This document shows positions 6,421-15,832 of a stretch of DNA of 34,241 bases, one piece after another (position 1 is the first letter of the stretch; every line of letters starts with the position of its first letter). Below the pieces are notes generated by a model. That model ran no database searches. It was not told the origin of the DNA and saw nothing but the letters and a program-made list of their open reading frames with translations. Position numbers and translations under genes: made by a program. Origin of the DNA: Candidatus Paceibacterota bacterium (GTDB lineage: Bacteria > Patescibacteriota > Minisyncoccia > Minisyncoccales > GCA-002788555); NCBI GenBank assembly GCA_028716825.1, contig JAQUPA010000006.1, positions 1 to 34,241 on the forward strand, given 5' to 3'.

Positions 6421-7035
6421 TTATTTTAAACCTAAAATCAATTTTACAAATTTCGTTCTGGCATAAAATGCGCGACTAATGCTTCCATGCCCAGGTCCTT
6501 TTGTCCTAGGCTGTACTAGCTCCCCCATTTTTCCCGTTAAATGGTCAAAACCTTTCTTCTTTATTGTTTCTTTTACTAACTCATAATCTTCTTCTACTTG
6601 TTTTTTTATTTTTTTATCCACCAAATCAAACGTTCCAACACTAATCAAAATTGAACGTTTTTCTTCTTTACTTTCAAATTCTCTACCACAAATAATTAAG
6701 CTTTCTAATTTTTTTAAAAGATGAGAATTTTCGAACTCCGTTTCAGCTACATTTTGAGCATTAATCATGGTAATCGCCATTGTTTCCTTTGGAACATACT
6801 TTCCATCTTTTTTCTTCAATGGCACTAATTTTAACTCCCAAGATTCTCCGTTTGGCGCTTGACGACAATTTAAGCCCAGGCCCAAACAATGTTCTAAAAC
6901 ATGTCCCGCCCATCCTTTGTTTAATTTACCATTTTTAAAAACAGTAACATTGTATTTATCAGATAATACTCGCAAATCTTCACCGATGAATTTCTGTAAC
7001 TCAGCAACTGCTTCTTCTCGAGTTATAGTTTTCAT
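6421..7035 (-). CDS. MutH/Sau3AI- or MvaI/BcnI-like restriction endonuclease (204 aa)
   Basis: The central block KGWAGHVLEHCLGL (E48) followed by SWELKLVPL (E67-L-K69) is the catalytic pattern of MutH, Sau3AI, MvaI and BcnI nucleases. The later GELVQPRTKGPGH...AFYAR resembles the conserved C-terminal region of MutH/Sau3AI. The acidic residue expected a few positions before ExK is not obvious: N62 stands where MvaI-type enzymes have Asp, though E64 is close. The start overlaps the methyltransferase stop by 4 bp, so the pair is translationally coupled and forms a type II restriction-modification system. The recognition site cannot be read from sequence; GATC is a guess from the family. Confidence 0.8.
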   Translation of the reverse strand: MKTITREEAVAELQKFIGEDLRVLSDKYNVTVFKNGKLNKGWAGHVLEHCLGLGLNCRQAPNGESWELKLVPLKKKDGKYVPKETMAITMINAQNVAETEFENSHLLKKLESLIICGREFESKEEKRSILISVGTFDLVDKKIKKQVEEDYELVKETIKKKGFDHLTGKMGELVQPRTKGPGHGSISRAFYARTKFVKLILGLK

Positions 7036-7850
7036 TTTTTGTTTCTTTTATTATTAATATTTTTCTTTAGTTCCTTAAACCTCTTTATGGATAAATCTAA
7101 ATATTTTTTTTCCGTATCAATGCCAATAAATTTTCTGCCTAATAAATAAGACATAATTCCAGTTGTTGAGCTTCCTGTAAACGGATCTAAAATTAAATCT
7201 CCTTTGTTTGTGCTTGCTAATATAATTCTTTTTAATAACGCCTCTGGTTTTTGAGTTGGGTGCTTCCCAAACTTTTTCTCAATTGGCTTTGGTGTACCAA
7301 TCGCCCAAACAGAGCGCATTTGCAACCCTTTCTTTTTTAGTTGATCCTCTGGCCAATCGCCATTTTTCATTTCATTATAATTAAATATGTGTTTCGCGTT
7401 TTTTTCTTTTCTCGCCCACAGTAAAGTTTCATGGCTCGCGGTGAAAAAACGACAGCTTAAATTTGGTGAAGCGTTAGGTTTAAACCAAGCAACATCATTC
7501 AAAAAATGAAATTTATTTATTTCTAAAGCAAAACCACATTGATAAATGGAATGATAGGTTCCGCTAATCCAAATTGTTCCTCCTGGTTTTAACACACGTC
7601 TGCATGCTTTTATCCAGTTAAGATGAAATTGAAAATTCTTTTTTGTGCCGTTACTTAAATCCCAATCTCCTTTTTTTACACTAACCATTTTTCCATTCTT
7701 ACAGGTAAAACTACCGCTAGAAAGAAAATAGGGTGGATCAGCAAAAACCATATCAAAATAATTTTCTGGAAACTGTCTTAGAACTTCTAAACAATCTCCT
7801 TTATAAAGAGTAAAATTTTTATCTTCGAAATATGGTTTTCTTTTTTCCAT
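7032..7850 (-). CDS. Beta-type DNA (adenine-N6 or cytosine-N4) methyltransferase (272 aa)
   Basis: The catalytic motif DPPY (38-41) precedes the SAM-binding motif DPFTGSSTTG (222-231), giving the beta order of the N6_N4_Mtase family. KGDCLEVL near residue 17 and HPTQKPEALL before the SAM motif are also family hallmarks. The sequence after DPPY (FLSSGSF...KGDWD) recalls DpnA/MboI-group enzymes acting at GATC, a resemblance from memory. First gene of the restriction-modification operon, so methylation precedes cleavage. An extended -10 (TGGTAGAAT) lies only about 9 bp upstream, implying a nearly leaderless mRNA. Confidence 0.9.
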   Translation of the reverse strand: MEKRKPYFEDKNFTLYKGDCLEVLRQFPENYFDMVFADPPYFLSSGSFTCKNGKMVSVKKGDWDLSNGTKKNFQFHLNWIKACRRVLKPGGTIWISGTYHSIYQCGFALEINKFHFLNDVAWFKPNASPNLSCRFFTASHETLLWARKEKNAKHIFNYNEMKNGDWPEDQLKKKGLQMRSVWAIGTPKPIEKKFGKHPTQKPEALLKRIILASTNKGDLILDPFTGSSTTGIMSYLLGRKFIGIDTEKKYLDLSIKRFKELKKNINNKRNKK

Positions 7851-9033: not shown

Positions 9034-9061
9034 AAAAGAAGGGCAAAATGCCCTTCTTTTT
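9034..9061 (-). terminator. Bidirectional-looking terminator after the secreted-protein gene
   Basis: An 8-bp stem, GAAGGGCA (9038-9045) with TGCCCTTC (9049-9056), has a 3-nt loop and A/T runs on both sides. It lies just downstream of the minus-strand gene ending at 9084. Confidence 0.8.
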
Positions 9062-9083: not shown

Positions 9084-9608
9084 CTATTTTTTTTCTGCGT
9101 TATCACAAATTCCATTTTTATCAGCATCAATAAAGTTTGGGCCCTCACTTTGATTCATTCCCTGTCCTTTACCTTGTCCTTTGCCCTCACCCTGTCCTTG
9201 GCCATTTCCTCCTTTTCCTGCCCAAGCTGGCTTTCCTGGAAAATCTTCTCGCAATACTTTATCTCCAAGTTTTGTTATAAGGAAAGTATTACCTTTTTCT
9301 TTCGCTCTTTCTCCATCAACTTCGATACCTTCTATTTGAAGCTTATCTCCAACTTTTGGAGACTCACTGTACCATACGGGTCCAATTCCTGCTGTGTATT
9401 CTTTGTTTGTATCAATGTCCTTAAAGGTTATTTGACGATTATTAACCTTCGTAATTTCTGCATTAATTTTAAGAGAATTTTTTTCTCCAGTTCTTGTCGT
9501 TACTGTCCCCGTTTTTGTAGCAGCAAAAGTAGGTATTGCAACTGCAGATATAATTCCTATCAGAAGACCAATTATCGTAAAGACTACTAAATATTTTTTG
9601 TTTTCCAT
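9084..9608 (-). CDS. Secreted protein with Gly/Gln-rich linker and Ca-type loop (174 aa)
   Basis: The N-terminus (about residues 5-29) is a signal peptide ending near TFAATKT. Residues ~30-115 look like a small beta domain (VGDKLQIEG...), possibly OB-like. A GQGQGEGKGQGKGQG linker follows at about 135-150, and the C-terminus has DADKNGICD, matching an EF-hand/dockerin-type calcium loop. The gene lies 95 bp downstream of the anti-sigma gene but has its own ECF-type promoter (9676-9701), the same as that of the sigma operon, so it is the likely regulon target. Exact function unknown. Confidence 0.75.
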   Translation of the reverse strand: MENKKYLVVFTIIGLLIGIISAVAIPTFAATKTGTVTTRTGEKNSLKINAEITKVNNRQITFKDIDTNKEYTAGIGPVWYSESPKVGDKLQIEGIEVDGERAKEKGNTFLITKLGDKVLREDFPGKPAWAGKGGNGQGQGEGKGQGKGQGMNQSEGPNFIDADKNGICDNAEKK

Positions 9609-9648
9609 ATTTTTTTCTTCTTACGTTTTTTTTGCGACCTTTTTGAAA

Positions 9649-9667
9649 TGTAAGTTTTTCCCTTACA
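9649..9667. promoter_or_regulatory. Inverted repeat in the leader of the secreted-protein gene
   Basis: TGTAAG (9649-9654), a 7-nt centre and CTTACA (9662-9667), just downstream of the ECF-type -10. It could be an operator or an early hairpin in the leader mRNA. Confidence 0.4.
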
Positions 9668-9675
9668 CTTATTTA

Positions 9676-9701
9676 TACGCAAGAAGAAAAATTTTCTTTC
9701 A
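9676..9701 (-). promoter_or_regulatory. ECF sigma-type promoter of the secreted-protein gene
   Basis: On the minus strand TGAAAG (9696-9701), exactly 16 bp, then CGTA (9676-9679), the layout of Bacillus SigW-group promoters (TGAAAC-N16-CGTA). The first 16 bases are identical to those at 11131-11146 before the sigma gene. Confidence 0.65.
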
Positions 9702-9703
9702 TT

Positions 9704-10480
9704 TTAGGGATTTCTAATTCCTCCTTTAAAGTTTTTTATATTTTGTTGCAATTTGTTTCTAAAGCGCCCGTTTCTTTGACCTCCTTTACCCGAAATCCAT
9801 GGTCTTATCTCTTCTGCAATAAAAATATTCAAATCTTTTGTTTTGCCTATTATTTTTACTTTACCTCCTTCTTGAATAGTAACATTTCCCTTAAAGTTAG
9901 TATCCCTTGCCTTAATTTGCCAAATTTTATTCTTAAAATCTTTTAATGAAAATTCACTTTCGTTTTTTACTTTCACTATAACACCCCCAAGTAATCCTTT
10001 TTCGGGATTGGTCCAAATTTCTTGTCTTTGATAAAAAGTTTTTCTGTAATAAGGAAAATTATCTGCGAAAACATCGTTTATCCTTTCTCCAAATCCAAAA
10101 GAATAAAGAAAAGATCCTAAAATAATGCTTATTATTATGCTTAAAATTAAAACTAAATAAGTTTTGTGGCGATAACCCCCCTTTGTATTTTTTAGATTAT
10201 AGTCTGCAAGAAATAAAAAAACTGCCAAAAAAATAATCCATAAATACGGAAGGCTACCTATCAAGTATTCAAAAAAACTCTTTTGGAAATATTTATAAAT
10301 ATCCCAATCATTGCTTAAAATCATAAAAAGCAAAACGGCAAAAGAAATACTTCCGATTATTATCGAAAGTCCGAAAAACAACCATGTTACATAATTTTTT
10401 AAGAGAAATCTCCACCTTGGAACAGGTGTTATTTTTTCTTTTTTTATTCTCTCTAAGGTTTTTTTGCTAATTTTTTCCAT
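9704..10480 (-). CDS. Probable membrane anti-sigma factor (258 aa)
   Basis: The start lies 4 bp after the stop of the ECF sigma gene. A ~28-residue basic N-terminus is followed by three transmembrane segments (about 29-55, 73-93, 107-126) and a ~130-residue extracytoplasmic region ending in a basic, Gly/Asn-rich tail. The position directly after an ECF sigma gene and this topology are what is expected of a membrane anti-sigma factor, although no zinc anti-sigma (ZAS) HxxxCxxC motif is present and the cytoplasmic part is short. This architecture recurs in Parcubacteria-type genomes as far as I recall. The assignment is by context. Confidence 0.65.
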   Translation of the reverse strand: MEKISKKTLERIKKEKITPVPRWRFLLKNYVTWLFFGLSIIIGSISFAVLLFMILSNDWDIYKYFQKSFFEYLIGSLPYLWIIFLAVFLFLADYNLKNTKGGYRHKTYLVLILSIIISIILGSFLYSFGFGERINDVFADNFPYYRKTFYQRQEIWTNPEKGLLGGVIVKVKNESEFSLKDFKNKIWQIKARDTNFKGNVTIQEGGKVKIIGKTKDLNIFIAEEIRPWISGKGGQRNGRFRNKLQQNIKNFKGGIRNP

Positions 10481-10484
10481 ACTA

Positions 10485-11066
10485 TTAAAAAGTTATATTT
10501 TTTTCTTTTACTTCTTTTTTAAAGCGTTCCCTTGCTCTGTTCAAAAGCGTAGCTACAGAACCCATCGGAATTTTTAAAATATCTGATATTTCCTTATAAT
10601 CTTTCTGCTCAAGATATTTTAGTTCTAGAATTTCTTTATATTTTTGGTCAAGATTTTTTAAAACTTTTTTTACAGTTTCTTTTTTATATTTTTTTTCAAG
10701 ATGAATGTCCGTGGTAAATTCTGAAGACAGGCTTTCCAAAAAATCATTATCTTCAATAAAAATCATTTTAGGTCTTGCTTTTCGCTTACGCCAATTGCTG
10801 ATAACTTCATTGTGCGCAATCCGATAAATCCAGGAAGAAAATTTAAGTTTTTTATCAAAGTCATTTAAGTTCTTGTATACCTTAATAAATGTTTCTTGCA
10901 ATATGTCCTGGGCATCTTTTTCAAAAAGTCCTGAAATTCTATGAATATAACGCAAGAGTTTCTCTTCGTATCTTTGCATTAAACATAAATAATAATCTTC
11001 ATCTTTTAATGTTAAATACGCCAATTCTTCATCGGTCTTGCCATCGCATTCTTCTTTTATAATCAT
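10485..11066 (-). CDS. ECF-family RNA polymerase sigma factor (193 aa)
   Basis: Sigma70 region 2 (about residues 25-95) carries DAQDILQETFIKVYKNL and SSWIYRIAHNEVISNWRKR, the core- and -10-binding segments. Region 4 (about 130-185) carries a helix-turn-helix with LKYLEQKDYKEISDILKI and GSVATLLNRARERFKK. Regions 1 and 3 are absent, as in ECF (group 4) sigma factors, and the length is usual. It forms an operon with the probable anti-sigma factor (4-bp gap). A TGAAAG-N16-CGTA promoter at 11121-11146 suggests autoregulation. Confidence 0.93.
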   Translation of the reverse strand: MIIKEECDGKTDEELAYLTLKDEDYYLCLMQRYEEKLLRYIHRISGLFEKDAQDILQETFIKVYKNLNDFDKKLKFSSWIYRIAHNEVISNWRKRKARPKMIFIEDNDFLESLSSEFTTDIHLEKKYKKETVKKVLKNLDQKYKEILELKYLEQKDYKEISDILKIPMGSVATLLNRARERFKKEVKEKNITF

Positions 11067-11120
11067 AAAGATTTTTCACTAAAATATAATTTTAATTATA
11101 TTATACCGTAATCTAAATAA

Positions 11121-11146
11121 TACGTATTCTGAAAAATTTTCTTTCA
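11121..11146 (-). promoter_or_regulatory. ECF sigma-type promoter of the sigma/anti-sigma operon
   Basis: On the minus strand TGAAAG (11141-11146), 16 bp, CGTA (11121-11124), followed by a TATT-rich start region ~54 bp before the sigma ATG. Bases 11131-11146 are identical to 9686-9701. Confidence 0.65.
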
Positions 11147-14613: not shown

Positions 14614-15219
14614 TTACTGCCAGGTTATTTTAAACTCATCGTAAGAATCGTTGTTATAAAGTGATTTTGTCTGTTCAACTTTTATATTCTTACTATTTGT
14701 TACCATTTCAATAAGCTTTGCTAAATATCCTCTAGTATAAGTATAAACAGCCTGGTGAAATTTTTTAAATCCTTCAAGACGCAAAATTGCATAGTGTTCT
14801 TTTATATTGTATTTAGTGCACTTAATCTCTCCAAAATCAAAGTGACGACGCCAGTGTTTCGGCCCCTCAAGAAGCATTTTTTCTATAGAAACATATTTCA
14901 TAAAAAGTTTTGTCACAATAGAATACATTGGCGCTTGATATCCTATATCAAAAGCTTTCTCTTCTTCCCATCTAAAATTTTCTAAAACAGCAAGACAAAT
15001 TAAACAAGCCCAAGCCTCGGGATACATTTTAAAAGAAGAAAAGCTCTTTAGTTTTATAGGACAGCCCAGGCCTTCAAGTCTCCATTCTATTTCCTTTACA
15101 GTATCCTCCCCTCTTTTATCAACCAAATAACCACGATAGGCTCCAAAAATCGCTCCACTGACATTGCCTTTTATTTTTAGTATTCTTTGTACTCCTGCCT
15201 TGGTAAGTTTAATCGGCAT
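14614..15219 (-). CDS. V4R/heme-NO-binding-like domain protein, copy B (201 aa)
   Basis: Close paralog of the gene just upstream (4-bp gap; the SD GGGAG overlaps that gene's stop). The layout is an N-terminal helix-turn-like region (LTKAGVQRILKIKG), a mid-region SSFKMYPEAWACLICLAVLE, then KHWRRHFDFGEIKC, AILRLEGFKKFH, and a C-terminal SLYNNDSYDEFKITW. This order resembles the 4-vinyl-reductase/TIGR02265-like ligand-binding domains, whose end typically reads RGDxxCEFxxxW; here the Cys is replaced by Asp. No DNA-binding or output domain is attached. Ligand unknown; the family call is from memory. Confidence 0.7.
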   Translation of the reverse strand: MPIKLTKAGVQRILKIKGNVSGAIFGAYRGYLVDKRGEDTVKEIEWRLEGLGCPIKLKSFSSFKMYPEAWACLICLAVLENFRWEEEKAFDIGYQAPMYSIVTKLFMKYVSIEKMLLEGPKHWRRHFDFGEIKCTKYNIKEHYAILRLEGFKKFHQAVYTYTRGYLAKLIEMVTNSKNIKVEQTKSLYNNDSYDEFKITWQ

Positions 15220-15223
15220 ATTT

Positions 15224-15832
15224 TTACTCCCAGGTTATTTTAAACTCATCGTAAGGATCGTTATTGTAAAGTGATTTTATTTGTTCAACCTTTACCTTTT
15301 TACCTTTTGTCGCCATTTCAATCAATCTTGTTAAATAACCCCAGATATAAAAATATACAGTTGGGTGAAATTTTTTAAATCCGTAAAGCCGTAAAATGGC
15401 ATATTTTTTTTCTCCATTATAATTTGCGCATTTCATTTCTCCAAAATCAAAATGCTGACGCCAGTGACGATTTGATTCCTTTAGTATTCTTTCGATAGAA
15501 AGGTACTTCATTAATAATTTTGTCAAAACAGAATAAGCAGGTGCAGCATATCCTACCTTGAAGGCATCTTTCTCGTCCCAACCGGCAACCTCTAAAAACG
15601 CGAGACAAATCAAAGAAGAATATGCTTTAGGGTACCACTTGAAAGTAAAAGCATCTTTGAAAGTTATTTTAAGACCAAGATCTTTTAGTCTTTTTTCAAC
15701 TTTTATTGCTCCTTCCTGGCCAATATTATCGACGATAAATTGATAATATGCCTTAAGAATTGAACCATGAACATTGCCTTTTATTTCTGCAATTCTTTGA
15801 ACCTCTTCTTTTGTGAGTTGAATTTTTGCCAT
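15224..15832 (-). CDS. V4R/heme-NO-binding-like domain protein, copy A (202 aa)
   Basis: First of a tandem duplicate with 14614-15219; the two align over their full length without obvious gaps, and their last ~60 bases are nearly identical. Shared blocks are FKWYPKAYSSLICLAFLE, RHWRQHFDFGEMKC, AILRLYGFKKFHPTVY and SLYNNDPYDEFKITW. Lengths are as expected for one V4R-like ligand-sensing domain without further domains. It starts 5 bp after the stop of the membrane protein 15838-16332, so the three form an operon. Ligand and output are unknown. Confidence 0.7.
   Translation of the reverse strand: MAKIQLTKEEVQRIAEIKGNVHGSILKAYYQFIVDNIGQEGAIKVEKRLKDLGLKITFKDAFTFKWYPKAYSSLICLAFLEVAGWDEKDAFKVGYAAPAYSVLTKLLMKYLSIERILKESNRHWRQHFDFGEMKCANYNGEKKYAILRLYGFKKFHPTVYFYIWGYLTRLIEMATKGKKVKVEQIKSLYNNDPYDEFKITWE

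Follow-up and report, generated by a model that had tools for sequence, protein, structure and literature searches.

Introduction

The SigW/RsiW pair of Bacillus subtilis couples an ECF sigma factor to a membrane anti-sigma whose gene directly follows that of the sigma, and SigW promoters combine a TGAAA core at -35 with a CGTA -10 element at a spacing of 16 bp. The same order of genes and the same promoter layout are found in the locus described here, where the membrane protein is a putative anti-sigma. CpxP and Spy are small secreted proteins controlled by an envelope-response regulator, as the effector of this locus would be. To our knowledge, regulators are few and signal transduction is almost unknown in bacteria of the Candidate Phyla Radiation (CPR), which are rarely cultivable. 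No description of a system of this kind in CPR bacteria was found in the literature searched, which comprised open-licence papers.

In the SigW-DNA structure, R175 reads G-35, T171 reads A-34 and K170 reads G'-31 (PMC6713349), and the SigW regulon includes the MacAB-like transporter YknWXYZ (PMC3498285). Regarding the inhibitors of ECF sigma factors, cytosolic lengths below 50 residues have been treated as indicating a possible class II anti-sigma (PMC7406223).

Organization of the locus

The window, which is the whole stretch of 34,241 nucleotides that was analysed, comes from a 648-kb draft genome whose relatives are Parcubacteria-type CPR bacteria; named loci with close relatives of its sigma factor belong to Moranbacteria, Falkowbacteria, Wolfebacteria, Magasanikbacteria and others. 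The features of the locus, all of them on the minus strand, are the following:

11121..11146, minus: P1 (TGAAAG-N16-CGTA, then TTA), candidate promoter for the operon of sigma and putative anti-sigma (sequence and conservation)
10485..11066, minus: ECF sigma factor of 193 aa with sigma2 and sigma4 domains (PF04542, PF08281, TIGR02937; SigW 5wuq)
9704..10480, minus: putative anti-sigma factor of 258 aa with three membrane helices, N-in/C-out (gene order, AlphaFold2 model)
10397..10480, minus: cytosolic N-terminal segment of the putative anti-sigma, residues 1-28 (alignment, model)
9800..9994, minus: extracytoplasmic OB-fold domain of the putative anti-sigma, residues 163-227 (model, PDB matches)
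9676..9701, minus: P2 (TGAAAG-N16-CGTA, then TAA), candidate promoter for the gene of the secreted protein (sequence and conservation)
9084..9608, minus: secreted protein of 174 aa (sequence; low-confidence single-sequence model)
9102..9128, minus: calcium-type loop D-A-D-K-N-G-I-C-D in the secreted protein (sequence)
9034..9060, minus: strong hairpin with a short run of T behind it, 3' of the secreted-protein gene (-17.2 kcal/mol, z = -3.4), likely a terminator

The sigma factor was clearly assigned to the ECF group, as the preliminary description had claimed: sigma2 and sigma4 were its only domains, both above the Pfam cut-off (PF04542, 5e-16; PF08281, 1e-11), TIGR02937 scored 99.9 bits against a cut-off of 42.9, and SigW (5wuq) was the closest solved chain. 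It is not a SigW equivalog, with 108.8 bits against a cut-off of 209 and 96.8 against 243.1.

P1 precedes the ATG of the sigma gene by about 55 bp, and P2 starts 2 bp past the stop codon of the anti-sigma gene. On the minus strand the site at 9676-9701 reads TGAAAGAAAATTTTTCTTCTTGCGTA and that at 11121-11146 reads TGAAAGAAAATTTTTCAGAATACGTA; re-reading of the sequence confirmed that both are exact copies of TGAAAG-N16-CGTA with identical leading 16 bases. P1 has the GAAA-type -35 and CGT-type -10 of autoregulatory ECF promoters and is kept in orthologs. From the proposed likeness to SigW promoters the TGAAA core stands, but the -35 continues as TGAAAG(AAA) instead of TGAAAC.

TGAAAG-N16-CGTA matched twice in the window against 0.16 matches expected, a number reached by 1 of 100 shuffles. 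In the whole genome the short 10-base pattern matched 3 times and its reversed control 2 times, a count without significance when taken alone; the third match lies within the coding frame of DnaK. The extended pattern TGAAAGAAA-N13-CGTANWA had exactly two perfect matches in the genome, P1 and P2, with one more at one mismatch; at two mismatches the genome-wide matches were not above the reversed control. The regulon search proposed earlier thus recovered P1 and P2 and revealed no wider regulon, and the regulon of this genome looks restricted to these two predicted promoters. Sigma70-like sites are also present near the genes, at background frequency. Since motif counts within a single genome can be no more than suggestive, the question was next put to related genomes.

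Conservation of the gene pair

Of 384 genomes sampled from the class, 67 were found to encode homologs of the membrane protein, and at each of the 70 loci examined (set 1) an ECF sigma gene lies directly upstream on the same strand. Similarity to the sigma factor was then used to retrieve a second set, of 80 loci, from a named genome collection; in 79 of them the membrane-protein gene is directly downstream of the sigma gene, the lone exception being at a contig edge. As 13 of these 80 repeat set 1, 67 were left after their removal. Over both sets the order sigma then membrane protein holds at 149 of 150 loci, some of them counted in both, and the distinct loci in the combined sets number 136. 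Searches of viral contigs and of the genome collection with the membrane protein gave no matches, the second set being obtained through the sigma-based search. One locus (L119, DAOUWX010000058.1) with both the sigma and the membrane-protein gene is in a MAG labelled Atribacterota, which reflects either mis-binning or transfer out of CPR.

Conservation of the promoter sites

Conservation of the sites was assayed by fixed-box counts with spacing controls, used in place of unconstrained motif discovery, which drifted into GC-rich coding sequence in the regions upstream of the sigma genes and was dropped. The strict motif was TGAAA-N17/18-[CT]GTA, and the expected numbers were obtained from dinucleotide shuffles, which ignore shared ancestry. 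Upstream of the sigma gene, at the position of P1, it was present in 28 of 70 loci of set 1 against 0.7 expected, and in 41 of 67 loci of set 2 without repeats against 0.76 expected. Just past the membrane-protein gene, at the position of P2, the corresponding values were 34 of 70 against 0.9 in set 1 and, ahead of a small secreted protein, 36 of 66 against 1.1 in set 2 without repeats. Nearly all matches had spacings of 17 and 18, with adjacent spacings near zero. Sense motifs predominated in the loci of set 1 (81 vs. 12 antisense), 68 of the 81 lying in the two expected regions, and in 51 of 70 loci no more than about 60 bp separated the stop codon of the anti-sigma gene from the start of P2. 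A position weight matrix, partly circular as it was trained on those very sites, gave matches in 72 of 122 upstream and in 68 of 122 downstream, compared with 0 and 4 in the reversed control.

The strict motif was absent from 48 of the 136 loci, some close relatives (L007, L009, L010) among them. Nevertheless, it recurs at both places across CPR bacteria, whereas its absence upstream of orthologs had been named beforehand as grounds for abandoning the proposal. This conservation between genomes is the decisive evidence against a chance match. At one locus (L051, G294:C31:34383-34467) the extended promoter precedes the sigma gene as two divergently oriented copies some 30 bp from each other, which suggests a bidirectional sigma promoter.

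Promoter sequence and sigma clade

In most lineages the sites have the form TGAAAGAAA...(T)GCGTA, whereas one sigma clade has TGAAATAAA...TGTA. In a quick tree, the first base of the -10, C or T, follows the sigma clade with 2 changes, compared with 13.3 when labels were shuffled. Among the 19 loci of set 1 having both sites, this base is identical at the two promoters in all 19 and the sixth base of the -35 in 15 (permutation p = 5e-5 for each base, with ancestry not removed). Such a natural switch of promoter code between sigma clades would be useful for understanding ECF specificity. In the sister clade itself (L052-L071, set 1), TGAAATAAA-N-TGTA is found at both positions instead of TGAAAG...CGTA, and in several of these loci a transporter of HlyD/MacB type lies behind the anti-sigma gene.

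Comparison with SigW provides a possible basis for the -35 sequence. T173 and R177 of the window sigma are the counterparts of T171 and R175, whereas A172 replaces K170, and the three residues are invariant among nine aligned close relatives. In parallel, base -31 of the window sites is G, not C as in SigW promoters. A TGAAA core that is kept and a change from C to G at -31 fit the conservation of T173/R177 and the replacement of K170 by A172; a SigW-type reading of TGAAAC through K170 was discarded for the window.

The putative anti-sigma factor

An AlphaFold2 model of the membrane protein, built with 47 homologs, reached a mean pLDDT of 88. It starts with a cytosolic helix (residues 2-15) and a turn with the P-x-P-R-W motif, continues with three membrane helices and has outside the cytoplasm a domain of five strands (residues 163-227) with the arrangement of an OB barrel. 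Most of the top PDB matches of this domain are OB folds, among them IF-1, YgiW and CcmE. The basic loop between the second and the third membrane helices supports the N-in/C-out orientation. Across 136 homologs the first membrane helix starts at a median residue of 24, with a cytosolic segment of about 24-30 residues. This segment, with its helix and P-x-P-R-W motif, is likely the part that binds the sigma, and the OB-fold domain is likely a sensor.

The absence of a ZAS motif, claimed in the preliminary description, was borne out: Hx3Cx2C was found in 0 of 136 membrane proteins of distinct loci, always encoded directly after the sigma. Pfam and NCBIfam searches returned no family and no known anti-sigma domain. 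A class I anti-sigma (ASDI/ZAS), with a cytosolic domain of about 100 aa, was rejected on the much shorter segment, the lack of Hx3Cx2C and the lack of a Pfam anti-sigma match. The length of the segment does fit the class II limit of less than 50 aa ahead of the membrane helix. In the CnrY type of that class a very short cytosolic part ahead of a membrane helix binds the sigma; the likeness drawn here is one of layout, and the protein of the window differs in having three membrane helices and a putative OB-fold sensor. Its extracytoplasmic domain has the same fold as periplasmic YgiW/BOF and CcmE, but forms the C-terminal part of a protein anchored in the membrane, and in sequence it scored 12.8 bits against a cut-off of 35 for the YgiW/BOF family NF033674. 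That the membrane protein inhibits the sigma factor is inferred from the order of the genes, from its topology and from the conservation of its cytosolic motif. The architecture of this putative anti-sigma matches no family in the libraries searched.

Genes behind P2

The secreted protein of the window has an N-terminal hydrophobic signal or anchor, a beta-rich OB-like region, a Gly/Gln-rich linker and the C-terminal loop; its single-sequence model (pLDDT 46) was too weak to be used. Of the 67 genes behind P2, 54 group together by similarity; the proteins of this cluster are for the most part small and secreted, and their typical form is a helical ERHEAM...NFxxFAEAHxL...ELGL domain followed by a Gly-rich tail. 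The window protein has the Gly-rich tail and loop as in the cluster, but its N-terminal domain is different, and it matched 2 of 383 other genomes through the tail only. It is an atypical member, tied to the other effectors by the tail and loop. The loop DADKNGICD proposed for the effector is indeed present; it is not typical of the orthologous loci, with a DxDxDGxCD tail in 12 of 67 effectors, and in the window it had no Pfam match to EF-hand or Excalibur. The effectors behind P2 matched no family.

Other genes behind the promoter in relatives encode HlyD-type adaptors and MacB-type ABC transporters, the latter recalling YknWXYZ of the SigW regulon, and in one locus BacA/UppP, which lies 267 bp downstream. 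The nature of these genes suggests an envelope-defence response, with no specific signal indicated. No MacB-type protein was found in the genome of the window; site-2 proteases are present in it, which makes a proteolytic release step possible. In one CPR family (f27) the same promoter is also present at DUF5654 genes, at a distance from the sigma locus (L190, L197, L200, L208, L211, L216, L218). DUF5654 was rejected as a general regulon member, as the motif was upstream in 4 of 17 carriers that have the system, each of them from f27, and in 0 of 19 carriers lacking the system.

Proposed circuit and alternatives

The circuit of ECF sigma, membrane anti-sigma and secreted effector put forward in the preliminary description is supported by the conserved promoters and the obligate gene pairing, and we regard it as highly probable that the locus is a self-contained envelope-response switch that activates itself and drives the secreted protein. 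The 193-aa sigma would recognise TGAAAG-AAA-N13/14-CGTA promoters. In an unstressed cell it would be tethered by the three-helix membrane protein encoded next to it, which would bind the sigma through its short N-terminal segment in the cytosol and sense the envelope through its extracytoplasmic OB-fold domain. A signal would then free the sigma through conformational change or proteolysis. At P1, the freed sigma would transcribe its own sigma/anti-sigma operon, resulting in positive feedback along with a renewed supply of the inhibitor; at P2, where the anti-sigma gene ends, it would drive the small secreted protein, which may protect the envelope or reset the sensor.

By analogy, such a circuit would work like SigW/RsiW without being its equivalog. 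The differences are G for C at -31, Ala for K170 and scores below the SigW equivalog cut-offs, a putative anti-sigma in which, unlike in RsiW, three membrane helices are combined with an external OB domain and a class I anti-sigma domain is lacking, and a regulon of apparently two promoters. With respect to CpxP and Spy, most effectors here belong to a helical family of their own with a Gly-rich tail, and the window protein is OB-like.

The membrane protein could instead be another co-transcribed envelope protein, such as an effector or a part of a transporter, with the sigma controlled at the level of its own transcription. The lack of similarity to known anti-sigma domains and a cytosolic segment of merely about 24-30 residues would suit such a protein. 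However, its gene lies invariably right after that of the sigma at about 150 loci, its N-in topology goes along with conservation of the cytosolic motif and with an extracytoplasmic domain, P2 sets the effector apart from the membrane protein in what is as a whole the usual sigma/anti-sigma layout, and class II anti-sigma domains of similarly short length exist (PMC7406223), all of which makes a role other than that of anti-sigma unlikely.

As for the repeated sites, the AT-rich dyad GAAAATTTTTC within the 16 bases shared in the window could point to operators of a separate DNA-binding regulator rather than to promoters for the sigma. Yet the dyad is lost in orthologs, which keep the two boxes, their fixed distance of 17/18 bp, their orientation and a CGTA or TGTA -10 whose first base tracks the sigma clade, and we hold operators to be very improbable. 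Hardly any credence can be given to a chance resemblance in AT-rich DNA with ordinary housekeeping promoters in use: the lack of enrichment of the short pattern in the genome and the nearby sigma70-like sites at background frequency would agree with it, but it is statistically refuted by the excess over shuffles, about 50-fold for P1 and 30-fold for P2, in the independently fetched set 2.

Starting from the sigma/anti-sigma switch, a broader and rather doubtful proposal is that of an ECF family spread over CPR bacteria and paired with a distinct type of anti-sigma (short cytosolic tether, three membrane helices, external OB-fold sensor), with a minimal two-promoter regulon and a secreted product feeding back on the sensor, in which the code has split into CGTA and TGTA lineages and, in the window, the OB-like domains of sensor and secreted protein bind the same ligand. 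Sequence homology between the OB domain of the anti-sigma and the secreted protein of the window was looked for by comparison and not found. The conserved pair and its predicted promoter code, found in 67 of the 384 genomes sampled from the class, constitute a directly testable circuit, also in a heterologous host.

Other genes in the window

On the minus strand at 6421-7850, two adjoining genes are likely a restriction-modification pair: one resembles a restriction endonuclease, which by eye is MvaI/BcnI-like, and the other a DNA methyltransferase. A tandem pair of paralogous proteins of about 200 aa each is encoded at 14614-15832; the member at 15224-15832, the one of the pair that was checked, matched no Pfam family. 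Finally, the secreted proteins encoded at 1-453 and 2177-2731 both contain the near-identical repeat-like segment ITSRKIKTGNVKNSDVADGAITKYKIAAGAVTGSRIANG and differ in their C-terminal halves, a pattern that looks like that of recombining surface proteins.
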